A stretch of DNA of 32,838 bases. It comes from a virus. Below are positions 4,253-32,838 of the stretch, in pieces. The translations under genes and the position numbers were made by a program. How positions within the stretch are numbered: position 1 is the first letter of the stretch; every line of letters begins with the position of its first letter. The stretch lies in the IMG/VR virus record IMGVR_UViG_3300031851_000094, positions 1 to 32,838 of that record. One strand, given 5' to 3'. The notes under the pieces were generated by a model that saw only the letters and a list, made by a program, of their open reading frames with translations, made no database searches and had not been told where the DNA came from.

Positions 4253-4911
4253 TTTATTCTACAAATTTCTTTATGTTTATCGTCTGATTTAACTGGATGA
4301 TAGACCCTACCATCTTTTATATTATCTAGTGGAACCTTAGATTGACTCCAATTAAAATACCTTGTATTAAAACAATTATAAAACCCTTCTGCTCTAAAAT
4401 CTTCCCTAGTTTCAGCTAAAGTCGGTAGAACTATCTCATGAAACAACCCTTTTTTATGTTTTTTAATGAATGATTTCGTTTTCTTGATAAGATTAGGAGA
4501 GACTCTGCAAAAACAATTTAACGATTTCCAACTTTGAGAAGCCCTTATGTCTGTGAATTCTTTGGTCAAAGGCCACCAACACCAACAGACACAGGTTTCA
4601 CGATGAGAAACCCAATTAGAAATCAGATCGATCTCTTTGAATTTAAATTTATTAAAAACAGACTCTATCGTTTCTTTGTTAAATGCCACATCGTCCTCTA
4701 TTATCCAAGTATATTCTTCTTTAAGATCCTTAAAAAGAATATCCCATGCTGTAGTACTATTCCTCCACTTGCCAGTCATACCTGTATGACCCTCTACATC
4801 TCCCTCCACATCCAATATTACCTCAACTTCACCCAAAGGAGAAAGTAATTTCGTTAAATTATCTGTTTTAACACTCTCTTTTCGGGCTAATATTTTAAAA
4901 ACATTCTTCAT
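4249..4911 (-). CDS. Glycosyltransferase-like protein (GT-A type)
   Basis: 220 residues. YTWIIEDDVAF (about 67-77) resembles the acidic metal-binding motif of GT-A glycosyltransferases, like the EDD of family 25-type enzymes. The order of an N-terminal Rossmann-like strand region, the EDD motif and a Trp/Cys-rich acceptor region (CVCWCWWPL, about 108-116) is compatible with that. The C-terminus ends with YHPVKSDDKHKE. It overlaps the dehydrogenase gene before it and the methyltransferase-like gene after it by four bases each, forming a three-gene sugar cassette. Family assignment is by resemblance only. Confidence 0.5.
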   Translation of the reverse strand: MKNVFKILARKESVKTDNLTKLLSPLGEVEVILDVEGDVEGHTGMTGKWRNSTTAWDILFKDLKEEYTWIIEDDVAFNKETIESVFNKFKFKEIDLISNWVSHRETCVCWCWWPLTKEFTDIRASQSWKSLNCFCRVSPNLIKKTKSFIKKHKKGLFHEIVLPTLAETREDFRAEGFYNCFNTRYFNWSQSKVPLDNIKDGRVYHPVKSDDKHKEICRIK

Positions 4912-5663
4912 TTCCTCTTCCTTATACTCTGATTATAAGCTCTAGCACAATCCATTATAGATAAAAAACTACCATATTTCTCAGAAGTCTTTACTAGTGC
5001 AGCACTATCTTTTGGGAAACAATGACCTCCAAATCCTCTCTCTTCAGTGATAAAAGAATGACTATCCCCTATTCTATGATCTGCAGTAGTATGTTCTCTA
5101 ACCTCGTCGTAGTTCACCCCAAGTTTTTGACAAAGATCGTACAACTGGTTAAAAAAAGAAACCTTTAGGGCTAAAAAATTATTTTTTGCATATTTAGTAA
5201 TGATTAAAGCTTCCGCCTCTGACTCTACGCATTTTAAATTATTAAAAACATTAGACCAAAATTTGAAATCATCTCCTCCGATCAGTATAGACTCCATATT
5301 TGAAATATCCTCAGACCAAGACTCTTGTCTCAAGAACTCTGGACTGAAACTGATATTAGAATTTGGGAATTTATTCTTCAACTCCCTCCAACCTTCTAAA
5401 CATATTGTACTTTTAATTAAAATGGGAACGTCTTTCGGACTTTCCTCAATAACACTAAAAACATTCCCCATATAACAAGCACCATCTTCTTGTTGGGGAG
5501 TAGCCACACAAATGACAACTGCGTCTGTATCTCGTGAGATGCCTTTACTATATTCTTGTAAAGCTGGGTCGCTTATTGCTAAACTGTAGTTTTGCCGATT
5601 AGATGAAAGCAACTGCTCATATCCTCGCCCTACAAAACCATATCCTGCGATTGTTATTTTCAT
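4908..5663 (-). CDS. Short UDP-glucose/GDP-mannose dehydrogenase-like protein
   Basis: 251 residues from the ATG at 5663, which overlaps the upstream stop as ATGA; the frame is open to 5711 but that would overlap the previous gene. N-terminal NAD-binding GYGFVG (8-13), SPEFLRQ (108-114), KYAKNNFLALKVSFFN (157-172) and the active-site segment GFGGHCFPKD (210-219, catalytic Cys215) are all present. This family normally oxidises a nucleotide sugar to the uronic acid in two steps. Full-length members are about 390-450 residues. This one stops soon after the catalytic Cys and lacks the C-terminal nucleotide-sugar-binding domain, so its substrate may differ or the missing part may be supplied in trans. 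Confidence 0.85.
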   Translation of the reverse strand: MKITIAGYGFVGRGYEQLLSSNRQNYSLAISDPALQEYSKGISRDTDAVVICVATPQQEDGACYMGNVFSVIEESPKDVPILIKSTICLEGWRELKNKFPNSNISFSPEFLRQESWSEDISNMESILIGGDDFKFWSNVFNNLKCVESEAEALIITKYAKNNFLALKVSFFNQLYDLCQKLGVNYDEVREHTTADHRIGDSHSFITEERGFGGHCFPKDSAALVKTSEKYGSFLSIMDCARAYNQSIRKRK

Positions 5664-5887
5664 TTTTTTTCTGCGTAACCTTGGTATTGGTCTGCTGGAT
5701 CTAAAGTCCAACCTTTAATTCCGAAATCATGCGCTCCTTTCCTAGCACACATTAAATCATGAACTTGTGGAGAATCTATCTTATAACAACAAGAATCAAT
5801 AGGGTTATCCTCTTTATTCAAAATAACAACCATTAATTCTTTATATCCGTTAGGTCCGATGACCCTGCTGTCGTATCTAAAACTCAT
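5660..5887 (-). CDS. Hypothetical protein in sugar operon
   Basis: 75 residues (MSFRYDSRVIGPNGYKELMVV through GIKGWTLDPADQYQGYAEKK). Alternating strands and charged turns suggest a small soluble beta-rich protein, and three Cys residues are present. No family recognised. Start and stop both overlap the neighbours by ATGA, so it is a real member of the leftward operon, between the membrane-anchored protein and the dehydrogenase-like enzyme. Confidence 0.7.
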   Translation of the reverse strand: MSFRYDSRVIGPNGYKELMVVILNKEDNPIDSCCYKIDSPQVHDLMCARKGAHDFGIKGWTLDPADQYQGYAEKK

Positions 5888-16202: not shown

Positions 16203-16820
16203 CTAATAACCCCAACTATTTAAGGTATGTTGAAAAGGATTATCTTCTATACCCTTAACCAAGTCAAGCATTTTCTCTGCTATTTCTCTAATTTCTTTTT
16301 GAGCGTGTTCACTTTTGCGTAATTTAATAAAGTTTGCGAAGCTACGCATGTTAAATTGTACATCGGCTTGAATGCGACTATTGTAGGTCTTAAAGAAACG
16401 TGCAGATTCTTTTGCTCGTTTGCGACCCAACTCTGGTTCAAGATCAGCAAGACATTTATGGTAAAGTCTATTACCGTCTTCAGTGTATTGTTTCAATTGT
16501 TGTTGCCAGAAATCTGGCCAATCATCAGGGATAAAAGTTTTATCCTCTTTCAGTTCTTTGTATCGTGCCGACTCTGCATTGAGAGAAGATAATCTATGCT
16601 TAAGTAAATGAATATGACTGGCAATATCGCAATCAACAAGAAAATGGACACTACCTTTTTCAAAAGGGGTCTCGTGTCCGTGGCTCCAAAGCATGTCGAT
16701 GAGCTTCGGAATTCTCTGTCTTTTCTTTTCATCTAAGTCTCTTGAAGTTGATGTCCAAGCACTACAAGCAATAACTTCATCACTACCATAGTGTCCTAAT
16801 AATTCTACTGTATTATCCAT
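16203..16820 (-). CDS. thyX: Flavin-dependent thymidylate synthase ThyX
   Basis: 205 residues from the ATG at 16820 (a TTG three codons earlier is possible). It makes dTMP from dUMP using FAD, NADPH and methylene-tetrahydrofolate. The signature is at 74-87: KHRLSSLNAESARY, matching RHRxxSxNxxSxRY except that the first Arg is Lys. HETPFEKGSVHFLVDCD (49-65) is the usual preceding segment, and FFKTYNSRIQADVQFNMRSF, then FIKLRKSEHAQKEIRE, near the C-terminus are typical. Full length for the family. Located in an operon with the glycosyltransferase-like gene upstream and small genes downstream. Phage thyX supports DNA synthesis during infection. Confidence 0.92.
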   Translation of the reverse strand: MDNTVELLGHYGSDEVIACSAWTSTSRDLDEKKRQRIPKLIDMLWSHGHETPFEKGSVHFLVDCDIASHIHLLKHRLSSLNAESARYKELKEDKTFIPDDWPDFWQQQLKQYTEDGNRLYHKCLADLEPELGRKRAKESARFFKTYNSRIQADVQFNMRSFANFIKLRKSEHAQKEIREIAEKMLDLVKGIEDNPFQHTLNSWGY

Positions 16821-16829
16821 TTTTTTCAA

Positions 16830-17600
16830 TTAAAAATTAAAGGGATCTGCCATTACCCAAGTAGAAGGCATAATCTTCCTGACAAAAAGATATCCATCCT
16901 TGCGATAAGTGTCAACCATTCCTTTGCTAATTTTATCAAAAGCCCTCGGATTCCTCTCCGCCTTCCCAAAAGAATCTTTCCTTATACTCCAATCAGAATA
17001 AGTCGTAGCTTGCCCCATCTCAAAATCCAGCCCCAGCTCTTTAGCTATCCCCCAAAAATAAAACTCATCAGCAAAAATAACTTTATCCCTTACAAAGTAC
17101 TTAGACCAATGATCAAAAGTCTCAACGAACTTGATCGCATCTTTTCGCCTTAAAACAAAAAATTGGCAAACTGCATTGTACTCATCAAACTTATAATCCT
17201 TAATCCCCTCCCTAAAAGTTAGTTGACTCTTAACCTTAGTATGAAAACTAAAGTGTTTTGAAAATGTAGTTTTACTATATCTTTCTTTTATTAAACCCAC
17301 TGTCTTATTTAAATCATAAAGAGGGAAGTGAGACTCACTAATTAAAGAAAAATATTCATTATCGTCATCTTCTAATGCTGCCTTGATTAGCTCAATAGTG
17401 GCTTCAACTAAGGAAAATTGGCCCCACGCAGTAGGAACTACATTATCTATATAATAGTCGGAGAAAATACTGGGCCTCCTTGTTTTAGGGTGGATGTATA
17501 AATTAAACTTAGATTGATCTCCATCATCAAAAAACTTCTTCCAAGTATTATTGTGGTTAAAGGAGTTGTAGGTTAAATTTAAGAAAGCTACTTTTTCCAT
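16830..17600 (-). CDS. Core-2/I-branching-type glycosyltransferase
   Basis: 256 residues. FLNLTYNSFNHNNTWKKFF, FNLYIHPKTRRP, AWGQFSLVEATIELIKAAL and NEYFSLISESHFPLYDL match the GT14-like Core-2/I-branching layout: an N-terminal strand region, WG-x-x-SLV, and the conserved SESHFPL where the sugar donor binds. CQFFVLRRKDA and FADEFYFWG follow in the expected places. It transfers a sugar to an acceptor, probably on the virion or on a phage-made glycan. First gene of the leftward operon; its promoter region is shared with the divergent 17648 gene. A TATAAT is visible on both strands around 17622-17627, but no good -35. Confidence 0.7.
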   Translation of the reverse strand: MEKVAFLNLTYNSFNHNNTWKKFFDDGDQSKFNLYIHPKTRRPSIFSDYYIDNVVPTAWGQFSLVEATIELIKAALEDDDNEYFSLISESHFPLYDLNKTVGLIKERYSKTTFSKHFSFHTKVKSQLTFREGIKDYKFDEYNAVCQFFVLRRKDAIKFVETFDHWSKYFVRDKVIFADEFYFWGIAKELGLDFEMGQATTYSDWSIRKDSFGKAERNPRAFDKISKGMVDTYRKDGYLFVRKIMPSTWVMADPFNF

Positions 17601-18973: not shown

Positions 18974-19282
18974 TTAAAAATAAAGTTCATCAAAGAACCT
19001 ATTTCCATTATAAGCTTTATCATCAATCCAAAAATCATATGATGGCTTATTCATCCTAAGCTCTGTATATTTGACTCCCCACTCTTCAAGCTGGCTCTTT
19101 GTTAACTCAGTCCAGTCTTTCCCCGAATTGCCCCCTCTAGCTGTCCAGTAGATAATTTCATTACCCTTCTTGTATAATTCATTAAAGTACTGAATACGAG
19201 AACCCATGGGTCTAGCTAACTCATATCTACCTCTGCTATCTGTACAGATAGTCCCATCAATGTCTACAATGAATGTTTTCAT
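18974..19282 (-). CDS. HAD-superfamily phosphatase
   Basis: 102 residues. FIVDIDGTICTD (4-15) is HAD motif I with the nucleophile D7 and acid/base D9. YWTARGG (about 45-51) fits motif II, with Thr. A Lys in the segment NKPSYDFWIDDKAYNG (about 78-93) is the motif III candidate and WIDDKA is motif IV. Small, capless, of the sugar-phosphate phosphatase type. Last of a four-gene leftward operon, after the nucleotidyltransferase with an ATGA overlap. In that context it would remove a phosphate from a sugar bisphosphate, as GmhB does in ADP- or GDP-heptose synthesis, though the sequence is not a clear GmhB. Confidence 0.75.
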   Translation of the reverse strand: MKTFIVDIDGTICTDSRGRYELARPMGSRIQYFNELYKKGNEIIYWTARGGNSGKDWTELTKSQLEEWGVKYTELRMNKPSYDFWIDDKAYNGNRFFDELYF

Positions 19283-19749
19283 TTGTTTTTAATATTATTA
19301 ATTATCTTTGTAGCGCTTATTCCTTCTAAGAAAGGCACAAATAAAATCTCAGTATTTTTAGCAGCGTCCTTTTCTGAGAAATTCAAGTTGGAAATATCAT
19401 AATCTCCACCTTTATACCAGAAAGCTGGTTTAAGACGCCTCAGATGCCTCTCTACAGTCACTTCATTAAATATGAATACACTGTCCACGGATTCATGACA
19501 AGCCACCAGATAAGCTCTCTGCTCCTCGCAAATGATAGGTCTGTCTGGACCCTTGTTTGCCCTAACACTTTCATCACTATTAATACCAACAACCAGCTTA
19601 GCGTCGAGAGGAGCTGATCTTTTTATACTCTTAAGCATATGAGCATGACCAGCATGGAACATATCAAAACACCCATTAGTAAAAACAATAGGAGAGGAAC
19701 TAATATTATAAAGAATCTCTTTTAAAGAAACTATTTTAGGATGATTCAT
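19279..19749 (-). CDS. RfaE2/HldE-type sugar-1-phosphate cytidylyltransferase-like
   Basis: 156 residues. TNGCFDMFHAGHAHML (24-39) contains HAGH (32-35), the nucleotide-binding HxGH of this superfamily. VVGINSDESVRANKG, KPAFWYKGGDYDIS (107-120) and GISATKII (143-150) are the other conserved blocks, the last matching ISxTK. It should join a nucleotide to a sugar 1-phosphate; in HldE the product is ADP-heptose. The protein corresponds to the C-terminal half of bifunctional HldE, and the kinase half is encoded just upstream. Confidence 0.88.
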   Translation of the reverse strand: MNHPKIVSLKEILYNISSSPIVFTNGCFDMFHAGHAHMLKSIKRSAPLDAKLVVGINSDESVRANKGPDRPIICEEQRAYLVACHESVDSVFIFNEVTVERHLRRLKPAFWYKGGDYDISNLNFSEKDAAKNTEILFVPFLEGISATKIINNIKNK

Positions 19750-19750
19750 T

Positions 19751-20524
19751 TTAGAATGGTGTGGCTACTCCCTTTTGGCTAACAACTTTACTACAACATT
19801 CTTGAGCAAAAGTAATTGCAAGATCAATCTTCTGATCTTTTGACCCATCTTCGTTCAAATACTTCGTAACAAAAGCAGCCAAAAAAGTATCTCCTGCTCC
19901 TGTGACATCACGCACCTCAACCTTATGGTTTAGAGGATAATCTCTCCTTTTGTAAGAGCATCCTTTAGAACCCTTGGTCACAATTAAGTTCTCCCAAAGG
20001 TTTGTAGAAAGAAACTTAAAGTTATTCTCTGTATATTCTTTCTCGTTTATTTTTATAAAAGTAAATTGATTAGCCCAGTTTAAATTACAATCTTTTTTAG
20101 TATCCAGAAACGATACTTTCGATCTTCTAGCAATATAGAATAAATCTTCATGACTGAGGAACCCTTTATTATAATCAGACACAACAACAGCATCGTATGA
20201 ATCAAAATCTATAGAACTTAAAACCTCTAATCCTATAGGATTGTGTTGATCTTCATCTACTCTAAGCAAGAGTTGATTCGATTCTGAATCTATATAACGA
20301 ACCTTATCTCCTACAACATCATTACTAATAAAACTAAATTCAATATCTAGGTCAAGGTGATCCCTCAAATTAACGAAATTGTGGTAAACATTCTTAGCCA
20401 TACCAACACTGTAAACACGAGAAACTTCTCTGAATACTGGGACTGGACCCTCTGGACAAAGCCTAGTCGCAGCACCATAAACAAAAGTGTCTTGGCAAGA
20501 CTCTCCGATAATTAATACTTTCAT
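19751..20524 (-). CDS. PfkB-family kinase, RfaE1/HldE N-terminal type
   Basis: 257 residues. An N-terminal IIGESCQDTFVYG is followed by PEGPVPV (24-30), SVGMAKNV in place of the usual GGAANV (39-46), SDYNKG (116-121) and the catalytic DVTGAGDTF (206-214, GAGD 209-212). This matches the kinase half of HldE, which phosphorylates heptose 7-phosphate at C1. It is shorter than the typical 310-330 residues, with a trimmed middle. The altered GGA segment near the sugar site may mean a different substrate. It overlaps the upstream cupin gene by ATGA. Confidence 0.85.
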   Translation of the reverse strand: MKVLIIGESCQDTFVYGAATRLCPEGPVPVFREVSRVYSVGMAKNVYHNFVNLRDHLDLDIEFSFISNDVVGDKVRYIDSESNQLLLRVDEDQHNPIGLEVLSSIDFDSYDAVVVSDYNKGFLSHEDLFYIARRSKVSFLDTKKDCNLNWANQFTFIKINEKEYTENNFKFLSTNLWENLIVTKGSKGCSYKRRDYPLNHKVEVRDVTGAGDTFLAAFVTKYLNEDGSKDQKIDLAITFAQECCSKVVSQKGVATPF

Positions 20525-20895
20525 TTTTGTGAATCTCCTTTCTGGATTCTATACGAATCATACTCGTAATGTCGAGTACTAACTTCAAAAACTTTAGAGT
20601 CTTCTAATGCTATAAGTTTATGCGGGATGCATGGTCGCAAATGAACAGTGTCACCTTCGTTCAACTCAACCTCTTTTTCTTCCGCATTACCCAAATCATA
20701 ATACTTTAAAGTTAACTTACCATCCATAACTGCCCAAGTCTCCTCTTTTTGAATGTGATAGTGCATAGAGAATTCTGCGCCCTTATTAAACTTTAAAATC
20801 TTACCACAATACAAATCATTATTAGTAATCCAAACCTCTTCTCCCCATCCCTTAGGGTGCCTTTGGACTTTTGAAAATACAGGATCTAAGTTCAT
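20521..20895 (-). CDS. Cupin, sugar-isomerase-like
   Basis: 124 residues. GWGEEVWITNNDLYCGKILK is followed by the cupin metal-binding motif: H45-x-H47 and E52, with a later His at 92 (CIPHKLIA). The VWITNN start and RPCIPHKL are typical of type II mannose-6-phosphate isomerase-like and sugar-biosynthesis cupins. In this operon it may act on a sugar phosphate before the kinase, supplying a missing isomerase or epimerase step, but that is inferred. It is first in the operon, with a leaderless-type promoter. Confidence 0.8.
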   Translation of the reverse strand: MNLDPVFSKVQRHPKGWGEEVWITNNDLYCGKILKFNKGAEFSMHYHIQKEETWAVMDGKLTLKYYDLGNAEEKEVELNEGDTVHLRPCIPHKLIALEDSKVFEVSTRHYEYDSYRIQKGDSQK

Positions 20896-20902
20896 TTAAA
20901 TG

Positions 20903-20930
20903 ATTATAGGAAACAATTGACCTAAGTCAA
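20903..20930 (-). promoter_or_regulatory. Sigma70-type promoter of the sugar operon
   Basis: -35 TTGACT (20925-20930), 16-base spacer, perfect -10 TATAAT (20903-20908), then 7 bases to the ATG at 20895. It lies immediately after the hairpin at 20936-20973. Confidence 0.75.
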
Positions 20931-20935
20931 TAAGA

Positions 20936-20973
20936 AACCCCCACATAAGTTTTTTAAGACTCATGTAGGGGTT
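20936..20973 (-). terminator. Strong hairpin, probable terminator of the DGQHR gene
   Basis: Read leftward, AACCCCTACATGAGT pairs with ACTTATGTGGGGGTT, a 15-bp stem with three G-T pairs around an A-rich loop. It is followed by TTTCTT, a weak T-run. It lies 28 bases after the stop of the 21001-22071 gene and just before the sugar-operon promoter, so it insulates the two units. Confidence 0.7.
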
Positions 20974-21000: not shown

Positions 21001-22071
21001 TTAAAACTGTTTCTTATACAGATTCTCTACCCACTTAATGAGGGCAACATAATCACCCTGAACTCGACCAGTTATATAATGCCTTCTAGCTTTATCCCAA
21101 GCTTTTAGATTATTACCGATAGGCTCTATATCTTCCCTACTCCCTTTGGGTCTAAAGGGTGCCTTGGAAAACATATCGATAACATCTGCAACGTTGTATT
21201 TCATCTTTTTGTGAGCAAATAAGTATTCTTGTACGGCTGGCCAGAACTCTCCGCCAAACTTACTCTTAGTGAATGCTTCACTTCCAAATGTCGAAACCAT
21301 AATTTCCAACGTGTCCTCCCAGACCTTCAAAGCAACACTATTTCTCTTGGCCTGAACTTCAAGAGGGAGCGGATCACCTTTTTTAGTCTTACTCTCTCGT
21401 TCAAACTTGATGGTTAGCTTGTTGTACACATTATCTCTCCACTGTAGGTAAAGTTTGCCATACTTAGCCCCGAAATTTTTCGTCTTAGTAAAAGAAGAAC
21501 AGCATTCGAAGCCTTCGATGGAATTCATTGCATCTACAGTCTCATATATCATAGGAAACTTATTAAATTGATAGCCATCTCTGATACCATCATCAAGTGC
21601 CTGTTTTACATTCCAGACTACAGCCTCTTTAGGTAGAGAAGACTGAGTATCGGAATCATTAGCAAGCAAATAGTGGATGATAGGGTGGCCATCTTCAATG
21701 ACACGACACCTGATCGTGTCAGATGGGTAAGCGCAAACTCTATGCTGACCGTCTACAATGAGATTGTCAATCTTGCCATTTTTAAGTTTCTTCGCGAAGA
21801 CTGTAATTGGATCACAAATCTTGGCGTTCCAAGCATTTTTGATATTAGCAATCTTTTTTCTATCCAGCGGTCTTTGATATGTCTCAACTCTAAGATTTTT
21901 CTTAGGAATATTACATATTTTAAGATTGATATGCTGGCTTGAAGCATCGAACACTTCTTCATTGACTGAGCAAGGCTCCCCAAGTAAACCATATTTGGCA
22001 ACTGGTGAAACTTCAACACTGTCAATTTTAGATACATTCGATCCTTCTGACTTATTAGTTGGATAATTCAT
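21001..22071 (-). CDS. ParB/Srx-like DGQHR-domain protein
   Basis: 356 residues. YQRPLDRKKIANIKNAWN (65-82), ITVFAKKLKNGKIDNLIVDG and DGQHR (107-111) form a ParB/sulfiredoxin-like domain of the kind seen in DUF6551 and DGQHR proteins, which bind or cut nucleotides or DNA. The C-terminal 240 residues (with YLQWRDNVYNKLTIKFERES and FWPAVQEYLFAHKKMK) look helical and not closely known to me. ParB-type domains serve in DNA partition, CTP hydrolysis or as nucleases; in phages, this subtype has no settled role. It stands alone between the hairpin at 20936 and a structured upstream region. Confidence 0.65.
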   Translation of the reverse strand: MNYPTNKSEGSNVSKIDSVEVSPVAKYGLLGEPCSVNEEVFDASSQHINLKICNIPKKNLRVETYQRPLDRKKIANIKNAWNAKICDPITVFAKKLKNGKIDNLIVDGQHRVCAYPSDTIRCRVIEDGHPIIHYLLANDSDTQSSLPKEAVVWNVKQALDDGIRDGYQFNKFPMIYETVDAMNSIEGFECCSSFTKTKNFGAKYGKLYLQWRDNVYNKLTIKFERESKTKKGDPLPLEVQAKRNSVALKVWEDTLEIMVSTFGSEAFTKSKFGGEFWPAVQEYLFAHKKMKYNVADVIDMFSKAPFRPKGSREDIEPIGNNLKAWDKARRHYITGRVQGDYVALIKWVENLYKKQF

Positions 22072-27547: not shown

Positions 27548-27576
27548 ATTATAGTTTGTTTTGAAAAAAATATCAA
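27548..27576 (-). promoter_or_regulatory. Sigma70-type promoter overlapping the tail-fibre stop codon
   Basis: -35 TTGATA (27571-27576), 17-base spacer, perfect -10 TATAAT (27548-27553), then 5 bases to the ATG at 27542. The -35 box overlaps the TGA stop (27573-27575) of the giant fibre gene, so it is embedded in the coding end. Confidence 0.7.
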
Positions 27577-30500
27577 CCTGCTCTCCAATTAGATCCATCG
27601 GAGTAGCAAGGTATGGTATAGCTTCCACCCCCAGGAAAGGTGGACCCGTGAGAGGAAGCAAGATCATAGTAAGCATCGCTAACGAATGCTCTTTTACCTG
27701 CTGGAGAAGCAGATGGTAATGTTGATACAGTATAAACTTTATGTTCTATTGTCCCATCGACATCAAGAGTAGCAGTAGGGGTAGTTGTTAATATACCGAC
27801 CGAACCGTTTCCTGCTCCGTCAATATAAAATGCATTAGACTCAAGGTCCGATTCAATTCTGAAATTAACATCTCCTCCGTTCTCATTAATAACAATTTGA
27901 TCGTGTGTTCCTTCTTGAAGAGTCAACATCTTAACATTACCTGCATAGAAGTTAATCTGGTCAGTCGTCATTCCCATCCAAGTGTTGGAATCACCGTTGT
28001 GGGTTACTCTCTCACCTACATTTATATTGCTGTTAAATGTTACATTACCAGTCACTGTTCCACCAGATAATGGTAGCTTCGTACTATCGGCTACTGTGAT
28101 GTTAGAAGAGCCATTAAATGAAACACCATTAATCGTTCTCGCGGTAGTAAGTGTATCTGCATTTGGATGATATCCGTCATGGAATACTCTATTCACACTA
28201 CCTATAGAAGTAGAACCAGCATAAATTTCTCCTAAAACACTTAGACTTAAAGTCCCCGTAGTAGGGAACTGAGTATTTGTACTGCTTTCTTTAATAATGA
28301 GTCCATAACCACCAGCAGGTAATTCACCATCAAACTCGTTGAACTCTATGGCAACCCCCTGATTATTAGCTGTATCGAACTCAAGAGCGGGATAAGATCC
28401 CGAACCTGTGTTGCTATCATATATACGTATTAGTGGGCTTGTTTTACTAACGGTAAGATCACCAGTAAAGGTTGCTCCATTTAGGTTCGCCTTAAGGTTT
28501 AAGAAGCTGTTAGTCTCAGTCTCTGTATAGTAGCGACCATCTAGGTTAGCACTACTAATTGCGGTAATATGCCCATAAGTATCTAGAGTAATATCTTGGA
28601 TTACCGTACCACTACTATTGTTTACAGAAGCTTGTGACGAAGTATCTGAGTGAGATAACCCAGTAGAGGTTTGAGTGAGACCTCCACCAGCTGCTACACT
28701 AAAAGTCGTGCTACTTAAGCTAATACCGTTGCCAGCCGAATAAGTTGTATTTGTATCCGTATTAGTATCTGACCAAGGTACGTTAACAACTGCTTGTCCA
28801 GCTGAGTTGAGTTGTATTCCGTAAGTTCTCCCTGATGTCGCGGAGACCGAATTAGCCGCAACGCTTTGATCAGTGTTACTAAACAATTCAATACCACCTC
28901 TTGCAGTCGCAGTAGCTTCTGGCAATGAATAGTTGTTAGCGTTAGTTGCTCCAGTATAACCGAGATTAGCGAGTGTCAGTGTTCGTGTGCTGTGTGATTG
29001 GATCACACCATCTGTCATATTCAACTGATCTATAACAGTAGCCCCAGACGTATCGATGTCAGAGTCTGTTCCGATAATCGTGTTACCACTTGAGGTTACA
29101 TAACCAGCAGAAGCGTGATTCCCCCATCCATATGCAGTATTCCAGTTTGTGGAATCGCCTCCTGATGCGTATACTACACCCCCTGTTTTAATGCCTTCTT
29201 CGGCAGCAAGGGTTACTAGATTTAGATTTTCTAGCGCACTCCCATGAACCGCGTAACCTGATTTTGTGTTTTCTATAACTGGAGTTACTGTTCCATGAGC
29301 AGCATAACCTCTAGGAGAGCCGAGTGTATGGACTCGAACTCCATAAGTAGAACCTGTAGTAACGTATACCTGTAATAGCTTAGTCCCGTAAGTATTATCG
29401 CTTGTTTGATACAATACTCTTACGCCTGTGATATTATTGCTATGCCCACCTACTTGTAGAACAGAGAAGTTAGAATCTTGGTAAGAACGCATCCAGTCTA
29501 TGCGGATAAATGCGTGATCACCACTATCAGAATCGCTAACAATTACTTCGCCATGCTTTCTGCCGCTAGTATTCGTTGCAACGGTTACCCAACCCGCTGA
29601 ACTTACAGCCCCATCAACTTGAGACGTTGTTCTATAGGAATTTGCAGAAGTGGAATAATCACCTATCTCAGTCTGAACATAAGCTGTAGTCGCAATCCGA
29701 GTCGAATTATTATTTGCTGCTTGTGTTGGTGCTGTTGGGTTTCCAGTAAGAGCTGGACTCGCCAAGTTAGCCTTAAGGTTTAAGAATCCGCTAGTCTCAG
29801 TCTCTGTATAGTAGCGACCATCGTGTGTATGACTATCATTCGCAACTGCAACGGTGAGGGTAGCATTCCCAAGATTAGTAAATGTTGCGGCCCCAGTTGC
29901 ATCACCCGCAAGTGTTAGAGTAGGATCAGCAGTGTTTGTCGTTGCAATAGTAATATTAGAACCTCCATTGAAACTAGCACTGCCTGTAACTGCTCCACTA
30001 AGAGCTATCGTTCTCGCAGTCGTAAGCGTATCCGCATTTGGGTGATAACCAGCGTTAAATACTCTTTGTAGCCCACTACCTTCGTCAACTTCAAAGGCAC
30101 CATTTCTAGTTTTCTTTATGTCCCAATTAGCCCAGTTCCCATCTAAGAATCCATACTGGCTGGATGTACCATAAAGCTGTATAGAATGAGTTCCATTACC
30201 TAAGTACATACTAAGCCCAACATCAGTACTGGTAGCAGTGGGTTGAATTCTAAAGTTCTTGGGAAGATTGCTATCGTCTCTAAACGTCATCCCATTGACA
30301 CTTAAATCACCAGCGTAAGAATCACTAGCATCACTTCTTAAGAATGATGACGCATGAACACCATCAACTGTATCTGCATCTAATCCAGAATTAGGTCCAT
30401 CGTTACCTGCATGCCAGAACTTATTACCCCCTGAATACATCTGGCTATTACTAGTATACCATTCTCTACTTGTTGCTGCTTTGTCGTCACTACCAGCGGT

Positions 30501-32838
30501 AGGCGCTGTTGATGAACCAGCACTAGTTGGAAATGTAATAGGAGTACTAGACCCGTGAGTGACCCAAGACTCAGCGACGACTGTGAAAGTATCTCTCCAA
30601 TCGCCCGACATTTGGACATACAAATCATACGTATTTGAAAGACCAGAAGAGCTACTTCTTATAGAGCGAACTTCGCTAAATGTGGTAGCATTGTTGTCAG
30701 TAGTATACCAATTTAAAATGTGGTGCTCTTGCGACGAAGCCCCGTTTTCGTAACTTACATCGATAGCCTCTACACCACTTGCTACGTCATCGTATGAGTT
30801 GATATTAAACTTAATTCTTGCTTTCTCGTAAGCGAGATCAAGGACCACCCTTGCAAGATACACCCATACCCCTCCTATGTCTGCCCCAGTTACACCTACA
30901 GAACGAATATATTTTTTAGTTTTCCAATTTGCACTCCCAGCATTGTGATATTCTCCGTCTTTTAATATCCCACCTACGGTAACATCACCAGTAAAGGTCG
31001 CTCCATTTAGGTTAGCCTTGAGATTCAAAAACCCGTTAGTCTCAGTCTCTGTGTAATAGCGGTCATCATGATTGTGAGATGCTGTAGCGAAAGCTGAAGT
31101 GTTCTGCGTAGCAGCACTACCAAGACCTAAAGACGTACGACCTGTAGAAGCGGTCAATCCTGTCGATCCCCCATCCCACTTGTTACGGTCTGTGTATGCG
31201 GTATTCCAGTTAGTTGAGTTACCTCCTGTGGCTGTTACAGTTCCAGTAGTAGTAATATCTTTATTGATCTCGACAGTGCTACCATCTAATATTATACTAT
31301 TATCACTACCTCCTCCAGCCCCTAGACGTAATTCCTTTCCAGATGTAGCATATATACTAGCCCAATTAGTATCCCATGTTAGAATACCTCTACTAGCCCC
31401 CCACTGAGTAACCCCTCCTGAGTTAATACTTAAATAAGTTCCACCGAAAGCATTGGCCCCCGTATTTAAAGCTCCAGTCATCGTGCCACCAGCTTTTGGC
31501 AATGCGTTTTCAGCAGAAGTCCCTTGGGCCGCTGTAGCGAAAGCCGTAGAGGCTGAAGTCGCAGCAGTTCCCAACCCTAAGTTAGTTCTTGCGTTACTTT
31601 TTTGAGTCGAATTTAAACCCTGCGAAGCCGTGTCAACCCTTAACCTATTCCCTAAAGACGTAGTAACCGTACTTGAGAATGCTGAATCATCGTTAATTGC
31701 ATCTGCCAATTCGCTAAGTGTATCTAATGCGGCTGGTGCAGCACCAATTAGATCAGTAAGCTCTGTCTGAACATAAGCGGTAGTAGCGATCTTTGTTGAA
31801 TTATCATTCGGTGGCTGTGTTGAGGCAGTAGACAGTCTAGCTGCAGCTACAGTACCAGCATTTAAGTTGGTTGCATTTCGATAATAAGACCCCTCTTGAG
31901 CATCAAGCAAATCAGCATCTAACCCAGTACCAGTGCCATCGTTACCAGAGTGCCAAAGCGTTTTTACACCATTCCCATCATTAATATAACCTCCTGCATA
32001 CAAATATCTTGAAGCATTACCTACCCCACCTCCAATATACGATCCATAGCTTGGATTATACCCAAGGAAATCAGAAAATCCTGTCCTCGCAGCTAAACTG
32101 CCACTAGAAGCTTTTGCAAATGTTATTTTTCCTGTAGTAGTATCGTCTGCATCACTTCTCAAGTATTTACTTTGAGTAGAGGATGACGTTAAGTAACCAG
32201 CGCCAGAGTGATCACCCCATCCGTAAGCGGTCTCAGCAGAAGACCCTTGGGCTGCTGTAGCAAAAGCTGAAGCGTGATTACCATCGAGTAAGTCAGCATC
32301 TAAACCAGTGCCACTGCCATCGTTACCTGCATGCCAAACTGTGTTTCCATTAACAGTCAGTCTATCGTTGCCCCTTACAATGTTAACATAACCCTGATGA
32401 TTAATTGATATAGCAGACTTAGAACCTGAAGCATAAGAATCTGTCGTCGATAGATACATTTTTGTTCCATAACTCCCATCGGACTTAACGTAGATACCTG
32501 CTTGAGCACCATTTGAATCAGACGCATCAAAGGTGATTGCACCACCAGCATGGTCAGAACCTATACTCATAAGGTGCAGACTGCCCTGAGAAGTTCCTTG
32601 TGTAGTCGTGTCCCAAACTGAGGAACCATTAGCGCTCGTTACTCTTCCTCTTGCTGTTACAGTAGATAGTGTATCTGTTTCAGTATATGACGTTAAGTAA
32701 TTTTGGCCTTTAACATATGCAGTAGTCGCTATTCTAGTTGAATTATTATTTGCCGCTTGTGTCGGTGCTGTTGGATTCCCAGTTAAAGCTGGACTTGCTA
32801 ATGGTGCATAAGCAGTGCCATCAACATTACCGTTAGCT
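27573..32838 (-). CDS. Giant modular tail-fibre protein (N-terminus outside window)
   Basis: At least 1754 residues; the frame stays open to the right edge, so the start is not visible (an internal ATG at 32570 is not the real start). It is Ser/Thr/Ala/Gly-rich with recurring modules: WHAGNDG-x-GTGLDADLLDG, NNNSTRIATTAYVQTE, DGRYYTETETN-x-FLNLKANL with GATFTGD, SYGWGDHSGAGY and TASQGLN-type stretches. These are typical of phage tail and baseplate fibres that form long trimeric rods ending in a receptor-binding part. The C-terminus (VYTVSTLPSASPAGKRAFVS, then YTIPCYSDGSNWRAG) is the common ending block of such proteins. No catalytic chaperone domain is seen at the end. It likely sets host range. 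Confidence 0.9.
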   Translation of the reverse strand, partial: ANGNVDGTAYAPLASPALTGNPTAPTQAANNNSTRIATTAYVKGQNYLTSYTETDTLSTVTARGRVTSANGSSVWDTTTQGTSQGSLHLMSIGSDHAGGAITFDASDSNGAQAGIYVKSDGSYGTKMYLSTTDSYASGSKSAISINHQGYVNIVRGNDRLTVNGNTVWHAGNDGSGTGLDADLLDGNHASAFATAAQGSSAETAYGWGDHSGAGYLTSSSTQSKYLRSDADDTTTGKITFAKASSGSLAARTGFSDFLGYNPSYGSYIGGGVGNASRYLYAGGYINDGNGVKTLWHSGNDGTGTGLDADLLDAQEGSYYRNATNLNAGTVAAARLSTASTQPPNDNSTKIATTAYVQTELTDLIGAAPAALDTLSELADAINDDSAFSSTVTTSLGNRLRVDTASQGLNSTQKSNARTNLGLGTAATSASTAFATAAQGTSAENALPKAGGTMTGALNTGANAFGGTYLSINSGGVTQWGASRGILTWDTNWASIYATSGKELRLGAGGGSDNSIILDGSTVEINKDITTTGTVTATGGNSTNWNTAYTDRNKWDGGSTGLTASTGRTSLGLGSAATQNTSAFATASHNHDDRYYTETETNGFLNLKANLNGATFTGDVTVGGILKDGEYHNAGSANWKTKKYIRSVGVTGADIGGVWVYLARVVLDLAYEKARIKFNINSYDDVASGVEAIDVSYENGASSQEHHILNWYTTDNNATTFSEVRSIRSSSSGLSNTYDLYVQMSGDWRDTFTVVAESWVTHGSSTPITFPTSAGSSTAPTAGSDDKAATSREWYTSNSQMYSGGNKFWHAGNDGPNSGLDADTVDGVHASSFLRSDASDSYAGDLSVNGMTFRDDSNLPKNFRIQPTATSTDVGLSMYLGNGTHSIQLYGTSSQYGFLDGNWANWDIKKTRNGAFEVDEGSGLQRVFNAGYHPNADTLTTARTIALSGAVTGSASFNGGSNITIATTNTADPTLTLAGDATGAATFTNLGNATLTVAVANDSHTHDGRYYTETETSGFLNLKANLASPALTGNPTAPTQAANNNSTRIATTAYVQTEIGDYSTSANSYRTTSQVDGAVSSAGWVTVATNTSGRKHGEVIVSDSDSGDHAFIRIDWMRSYQDSNFSVLQVGGHSNNITGVRVLYQTSDNTYGTKLLQVYVTTGSTYGVRVHTLGSPRGYAAHGTVTPVIENTKSGYAVHGSALENLNLVTLAAEEGIKTGGVVYASGGDSTNWNTAYGWGNHASAGYVTSSGNTIIGTDSDIDTSGATVIDQLNMTDGVIQSHSTRTLTLANLGYTGATNANNYSLPEATATARGGIELFSNTDQSVAANSVSATSGRTYGIQLNSAGQAVVNVPWSDTNTDTNTTYSAGNGISLSSTTFSVAAGGGLTQTSTGLSHSDTSSQASVNNSSGTVIQDITLDTYGHITAISSANLDGRYYTETETNSFLNLKANLNGATFTGDLTVSKTSPLIRIYDSNTGSGSYPALEFDTANNQGVAIEFNEFDGELPAGGYGLIIKESSTNTQFPTTGTLSLSVLGEIYAGSTSIGSVNRVFHDGYHPNADTLTTARTINGVSFNGSSNITVADSTKLPLSGGTVTGNVTFNSNINVGERVTHNGDSNTWMGMTTDQINFYAGNVKMLTLQEGTHDQIVINENGGDVNFRIESDLESNAFYIDGAGNGSVGILTTTPTATLDVDGTIEHKVYTVSTLPSASPAGKRAFVSDAYYDLASSHGSTFPGGGSYTIPCYSDGSNWRAG
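28451..31068 (-). repeat. Dispersed repeats inside the tail-fibre gene
   Basis: A coding repeat with the core YYTETET then FLNLKANL appears at about 28451-28540, 29764-29820 and 30975-31068, with long near-identical DNA stretches (for example CTCAGTCTCTGTATAGTAGC on the plus strand in the first two). The first and third copies also share an upstream part encoding GATFTGD. Other shorter repeats (GLDADLLDG, STRIATTAYV) recur across the gene and beyond 31068 to the right edge. Confidence 0.75.

Follow-up and report, generated by a model that had tools for sequence, protein, structure and literature searches.

Layout of the operon and its spread among viruses

The window analysed here, 32,838 bases long, is an entire virus record of IMG/VR; no completeness estimate accompanies it, and it probably represents only part of a phage genome. 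On its minus strand, at 18974-20895, a cupin, a PfkB kinase, an HldC-type nucleotidyltransferase (NT) and a HAD phosphatase are encoded in a single operon (Table 1), and all four open reading frames grouped there by the first-pass annotation are present and could be assigned to families. The ATGA overlaps which that annotation had described are found at the cupin/kinase and NT/HAD junctions, whereas the kinase and NT genes are 1 nt apart. Upstream of the cupin, 18 related contigs (lying among L040-L051 and L120-L132) have a promoter similar to that of the window, ending 6-7 nt ahead of the cupin ATG (7 nt in the window), and because of this short spacing the operon mRNA may be leaderless. Downstream of the module, the window's relatives encode a GT14 glycosyltransferase with 63-79% identity, and most of them keep both GT14 and ThyX; the latter is probably external to the pathway, and the linked GT14 is a candidate for the enzyme that would use the sugar nucleotide. 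Genes for tail fibre and structural proteins are found on the upstream side of the operon. Elsewhere in the window (4908-5711), a UDP-glucose/GDP-mannose dehydrogenase-like protein of just 267 aa apparently lacks the beginning of the NAD-binding domain as well as the C-terminal domain.

Table 1. Features of the operon and of its surroundings in the window
Feature	Position	Strand	Remarks
ThyX	16203-16829	-	TIGR02170 above cut-off; conserved neighbour of GT14
GT14 (Core-2/I-branching type) glycosyltransferase	16830-17600	-	PF02485 5.5e-18
Minimal HAD phosphatase, EcbF/BcbF-like	18974-19282	-	102 aa; TIGR01689 3e-6; proposed 7-phosphatase
NT, RfaE2/HldC-type	19279-19749	-	156 aa; TIGR02199 1.3e-38
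Short PfkB kinase, HldA-like	19751-20524	-	257 aa; PF00294 5.1e-14; proposed heptose 7-phosphate 1-kinase
Cupin	20521-20895	-	124 aa; PF07883 8.7e-10; proposed sugar-phosphate aldose-ketose isomerase
Promoter TTGACT-16-TATAAT	20903-20930	-	11/12 sigma-70-like; 7 nt to cupin ATG
Terminator-like hairpin, 15 pairs	20936-20973	-	between ParB-like gene and operon
Weakly ParB-like protein	21001-22071		directly upstream of operon; PHROG 1033, 7.7e-5
Long tail fibre protein	27573-32570	-	PHROG tail fibre matches; upstream of operon

The four-gene operon belongs to a phage module that is already known and widespread, and the initial impression that such sets are rare in phages is contradicted by the survey: relatives of the kinase are found in 35 phage records, nearly all from cyanomyoviruses or marine viruses, those of the cupin likewise in 35, and at least 585 and at least 558 stretches in IMG/VR encode kinase and cupin relatives, respectively. 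The clustering of the four genes is far beyond chance, as the same set groups in other viruses in many orders. All four occur within 8 kb in 36 of 80 kinase-anchored viral loci, in about 10 gene orders, and cupin, kinase and NT occur together in 51 of 79 cupin-anchored ones, these loci being best matches and mutually related, such that the counts are not independent. In 28 of the 80 kinase-anchored loci the kinase has no NT, HAD or cupin gene within 8 kb; L059, L065, L067, L070, L072, L073 and L078-L081 are among these kinase-only loci.

No DNA-level relatives of the window were found in the phage collection. At the protein level, the cyanomyovirus 'LPS' cluster T4-GC 304-308 of P-SSM2, S-SM2 and S-SSM7 features homologous NT, kinase, HAD and cupin genes with an HldD-like epimerase nearby, but differs from the window in gene order, with about 27-47% protein identity. 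In P-SSM2 and S-CAM3 the order is NT, kinase, HAD, cupin and then epimerase, and S-SSM7 has the same order with insertions. T4-GC 304, 305, 307 and 308 were reported to co-occur with three others in the three cluster-bearing phages, and Sullivan et al. (2010) noted that these clustered 'LPS genes' may be functionally linked (PMC3037559). Furthermore, the LPS-related genes of pelagimyophages, which lie partly among the tail-fibre genes, include rfaE and UDP-glucose dehydrogenase (PMC7029224), and an epimerase is listed together with a heptose kinase and a phosphoheptose isomerase in a cyanophage announcement (PMC7378029). The window module has a tail-fibre neighbourhood too, the same setting as in cyano- and pelagimyophages. 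Several nominally cellular contigs (L025, L026, L029, L030, L031, L037 and L039) carry the cupin or the whole module and look like phage contigs inside single-cell genomes or MAGs; in one of them (L031, from Prochlorococcus AG-409-P03) a UvsX-like protein, judged by eye, is encoded near the cupin.

Family relations of the kinase, transferase, phosphatase and epimerase

The heptose-type pathway with separate HldA- and HldC-like genes, as read from the sequence at first, is borne out by the family scores, the structural match of the kinase model and the kinase tree. The best NCBIfam family of the window kinase is TIGR02198, at 94.6 bits and thus far short of the equivalog cut-off of 345, a distance at which drift of its substrate is possible. 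Structure prediction, proposed as a check in the first-pass annotation, yielded a kinase model (pLDDT 91) with B. cenocepacia HldA as its best structural match (4e84; Z 24.5, rmsd 2.2, 240 aligned, 28% identity), the best match outside HldA being a ribokinase (Z 23.3, 17% identity), and the PfkB GAGD motif (G209, A210, G211, D212) is invariant. Kinase phylogeny had been named as a possible refutation of the heptose reading. In a tree of 40 kinases, those of the phages group with HldA/HldE, apart from five further PfkB kinases of E. coli, with support of 98/97, and the phage clade is sister to HldA/HldE rather than to ribokinase, PfkB, FruK, PsuK or YihV. With a length reduced by about 60 aa, the phage kinases form a clade that sits beside HldA on a long branch (2.3 changes per column), which makes its exact place less certain.

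A similar picture emerges for the NT. Its best family is TIGR02199 at 132.1 bits, below the equivalog cut-off of 181.5 and again compatible with possible substrate drift, while the glycerol-3-P cytidylyltransferase family scores 31 bits, about 100 lower. By sequence, its nearest relative in the PDB is 5x9q (3e-21), identified as the HldC of B. pseudomallei in PMC7993394, where the HldC motifs TNG, NSD, KG, EXTP and KGG are also given. Four of these five (TNG, NSD, KG and KGG) are kept in the window protein, and the EXTP position reads EVTV. The nucleotide that it adds would probably be ADP.

The phosphatase had been taken to correspond to GmhB, an assignment that we reject: the window HAD has no match to GmhB (TIGR00213/PRK08942) and instead matches the EcbF/BcbF family TIGR01689, at 27.2 bits, below the subfamily cut-off of 162. 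The catalytic HAD residues D7, D9, T47, K79 and D88 are invariant, 9iqw and 1xpj are the closest solved chains, and no GmhB relatives were found in 159 viral loci. In cyanophages, GenBank and PHROG (PHROG 1238) label this HAD 'phosphoheptose isomerase', as at L007:10719-11063, at L005:13975-14286 and in other cyanophage records, as well as in the T4-GC 304-308 cluster. As the P-SSM2 copy matches EcbF-BcbF only and no SIS_2 domain was found in the six cyanophage genomes searched, the label is probably wrong and the protein a HAD phosphatase. 'Phosphoheptose isomerase [gmhA]' also stands in a list of viral marker genes (PMC9238414).

No HldD/SDR epimerase was found in the 32.8-kb fragment of the window. 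Among the relatives, an SDR match of some kind occurs in 39 of 44 records, two of which pass the HldD (TIGR02197) cut-off, and the HldD-like epimerases match TIGR02197 best by far. A phage SDR at L162 exceeds the cut-off (343.6 vs 274.6 bits), the epimerase of P-SSM2 reaches 210 bits with HldD vs 52 with GalE, and five phages closely related to that of the window (G005, G007, G008, G009 and G038) have HldD scores of 211-229.

The cupin and the place of GmhA

The window cupin displays motif 1, G(X)5HXH(X)3-4E(X)6G, and the metal-binding histidine of motif 2, which provide the metal ligands H45, H47 and E52, and H92, respectively; these four residues, like K50, are the same in all of 46-50 homologues. 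The profile of the cyanophage and window cupins aligns with D-lyxose isomerase (2y0o) and L-ribose isomerase (5avp) at a K-x-E pair, K50-x-E52 in the window, and the HxHxxKxE spacing is identical in 5avp (HYHxxKxE). D-lyxose isomerase is known to depend on the metal-binding Glu and on the Lys that precedes it by two positions: in lyxose isomerase, mutating the residue matching K86 abolishes activity and that of E88 strongly lowers it (PMC8378251). Against the D-lyxose isomerase family PF07385, the window cupin scores 22.2 bits (cut-off 20.8), with no stretch passing alone. Overall, the phage cupin shares its fold and metal ligands with cupin isomerases for D-lyxose (2y0o, 7nzo), L-ribose (5avp) and phosphomannose (7zvm), and the K-x-E pair with the lyxose and ribose enzymes; these isomerases differ from it in acting on other sugars, with identities of at most about 24%, and the lyxose and ribose enzymes are larger proteins than the cupins of phages and CPR.

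The fold search on its own was rejected as proof of an isomerase, since many cupins tie: the AlphaFold2 model (pLDDT 95.8) matches phosphomannose and D-lyxose isomerases among many others, with CapF ranking high. The 'cysteine dioxygenase' label of PHROG 7851, which the cupin also bears in the cyanomyovirus cluster, is unsupported. Lyxose, ribose and phosphomannose isomerases are among the PDB matches of that profile, where quercetinase and oxalate decarboxylase score too, and oxalate decarboxylase ranks first for the cupin of the Patescibacteria genome G054.

The absence of GmhA, noted from the outset, holds beyond the operon: no SIS_2 match was found among the window proteins scanned, and SIS_2/GmhA (PF13580), sought elsewhere in the phages, was found in none of 50 records with the module or its relatives, six cyanophage genomes included (controls positive in 9/14). 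The suggestion that the cupin may replace GmhA is the best-supported part of the first-pass annotation and draws on Patescibacteria, where a homologous cupin (37-45% identity) occurs beside or fused to HldA in ADP-heptose operons which, unlike the phage module, use classical HldA, GmhB and HldC. A Parcubacteria operon (L036) encodes a heptosyltransferase, the cupin, HldA (349 bits, cut-off 345), HldC-GmhB and HldD (308 bits, cut-off 274.6). Among 380 Patescibacteria genomes, HldA was found at E < 1e-30 in 19, and in 15 of these it lies in a heptose operon or adjoins GmhA. GmhA is present in nine of the 15 loci, the cupin in six and both in none, an exclusion with an exact probability of 1/5005 if kinship is ignored. 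In the nine, GmhA adjoins HldA or is fused to it (a GmhA-HldA fusion in G168), with no cupin there; in the six, the cupin adjoins HldA (G002, G054) or is fused to it, as cupin-HldA in G210, G232 and G352 and as HldA-cupin in G269. In G054 and G076 the gene order is the same with the cupin swapped for GmhA, HldA being 67% and GmhB 73% identical. Over the HldA tree as a whole, the exchange of cupin and GmhA implies at least three changes. Genome-wide, G002, G054 and G269 have no SIS_2 match, G210 and G232 have only SIS_2 ORFs of about 600 residues, which are probably GlmS, and G352 has a 46-bit match on another contig.

Beyond the 15 loci, G240 and G439 contain HldA and the cupin without SIS_2, as does G438 but for a weak SIS_2 match, while cupin, GmhA and HldA are all present in G242 and G437, and the cupin occurs without a clear HldA in G239 and G241 (no HldA match) and in G436 (a weak one); some of these genomes are incomplete MAGs. 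Replacement of GmhA by the cupin is thus strongly suggested without being universal. From the exclusion at the loci, the HldA fusions in both orders, the three or more exchanges and the isomerase active-site patterns, the cupin is probably a sugar-phosphate isomerase that stands in for GmhA. No description of a cupin sedoheptulose 7-phosphate isomerase was found in the searchable literature, outside which most subscription journals fall, and relative to that literature the replacement appears to be new. More broadly, we lean towards a hitherto unrecognised cupin family of metal-dependent sedoheptulose 7-phosphate isomerases that replaces GmhA both in a widespread phage pathway and in part of the Patescibacteria, and towards some of the 'phosphoheptose isomerase' labels of marine viruses being mislabelled HAD proteins.

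A proposed route to an activated heptose and its alternatives

We consider it likely that the enzymes of the operon by themselves convert a ketose phosphate drawn from the pentose-phosphate pool into a nucleotide-activated heptose, the starting compound most likely being sedoheptulose 7-phosphate. Beyond the computed family relations, clustering, GmhA absence, bacterial GmhA replacement with its fusions and active-site patterns, we infer the reactions catalysed, the identity of the sugar and of the nucleotide, and the acceptor, be it the virion or the host surface; the heptose reading itself appears well supported by context and homology. The cupin, in place of GmhA, would isomerise sedoheptulose 7-phosphate to D-glycero-D-manno-heptose 7-phosphate, from which the PfkB kinase, in the role of HldA, would form the 1,7-bisphosphate; the small HAD would then remove the 7-phosphate, a GmhB role filled by a different HAD family, and the HldC-like enzyme would attach the nucleotide. 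Many related phages add an HldD-like 6-epimerase. As a last step, the heptose would be transferred to virion proteins or to the surface of the host by a glycosyltransferase, which may be the linked GT14. A GT9 heptosyltransferase was rejected as the phage acceptor enzyme, as it is above cut-off in 5 of 44 records and weak. The module would share its logic with the GmhA/GmhB-type heptose pathway (isomerase, 1-kinase, 7-phosphatase and NT, with an HldD-like epimerase in phage relatives) but differ from it by the cupin in place of GmhA, an EcbF-like minimal HAD in place of GmhB, a short kinase and the viral location of the genes.

This reading provides a testable function for a cupin that hundreds of viral contigs encode, and it puts right an annotation error common in cyanophage genomes, the HAD as phosphoheptose isomerase and the cupin as cysteine dioxygenase. 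If the cupin assignment is true, there is a second way to heptose 7-phosphate, and phages own a complete pathway of their own design. Cyanobacterial LPS has been reported to be without heptose (PMC4515613), by which a heptose pathway in cyanophages points to a sugar foreign to the cell, on virions or on a remodelled surface; the tail-fibre neighbourhood fits virion glycosylation and surface remodelling against superinfection alike. The uses put forward in the first-pass annotation were virion decoration, receptor remodelling and mimicry of the host.

The same report would also suit a module with identical enzyme logic that, after drift from HldA and HldC, acts on a different phosphorylated ketose-derived sugar (a pentose, hexose or octose), as would the kinase and NT scores far below the equivalog cut-offs, the shorter kinases on their long branch and the HAD of an unrelated family. 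We nevertheless regard another sugar as unlikely, given that many relatives have linked HldD-like epimerases, some of them above the family cut-off, and that the same cupin family sits in bona fide ADP-heptose operons.

Supply of heptose 7-phosphate by a host GmhA, which the first-pass annotation had offered as one explanation for the missing gene, looks less likely because the cupin occupies the place of GmhA in bacterial operons. The cupin would then act otherwise, in regulation or in a later isomerisation of the sugar nucleotide, and the high rank of cupins such as CapF in the fold comparison and the bacteria that have both cupin and GmhA speak for this. In a survey at the level of the Prochlorococcus-containing family (81 genomes, the genus being represented by one), about 20 genomes have a GmhA-sized SIS_2 ORF, but most lack one, and with the mutual exclusion of cupin and GmhA at the 15 Patescibacteria loci, each of the two being found fused to HldA, we deem host supply improbable. 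Finally, that the module is cargo of little function in a variable tail-fibre region, as filler or in transit, is very hard to credit: 'stuffer DNA' was raised for cyanophage LPS clusters by Sullivan et al. (2010; PMC3037559) and gene order is shuffled between phages, but active-site residues are retained across very divergent copies, the set stays together through rearrangement and the promoter is conserved.

In S-SM2 and P-TIM68, a transketolase-like gene is located near the kinase. Apparent split transketolase and transaldolase genes also precede the GmhA-HldA fusion of the Patescibacteria genome G168 (L249:3095-6187), where they likely represent a local supply of sedoheptulose 7-phosphate.
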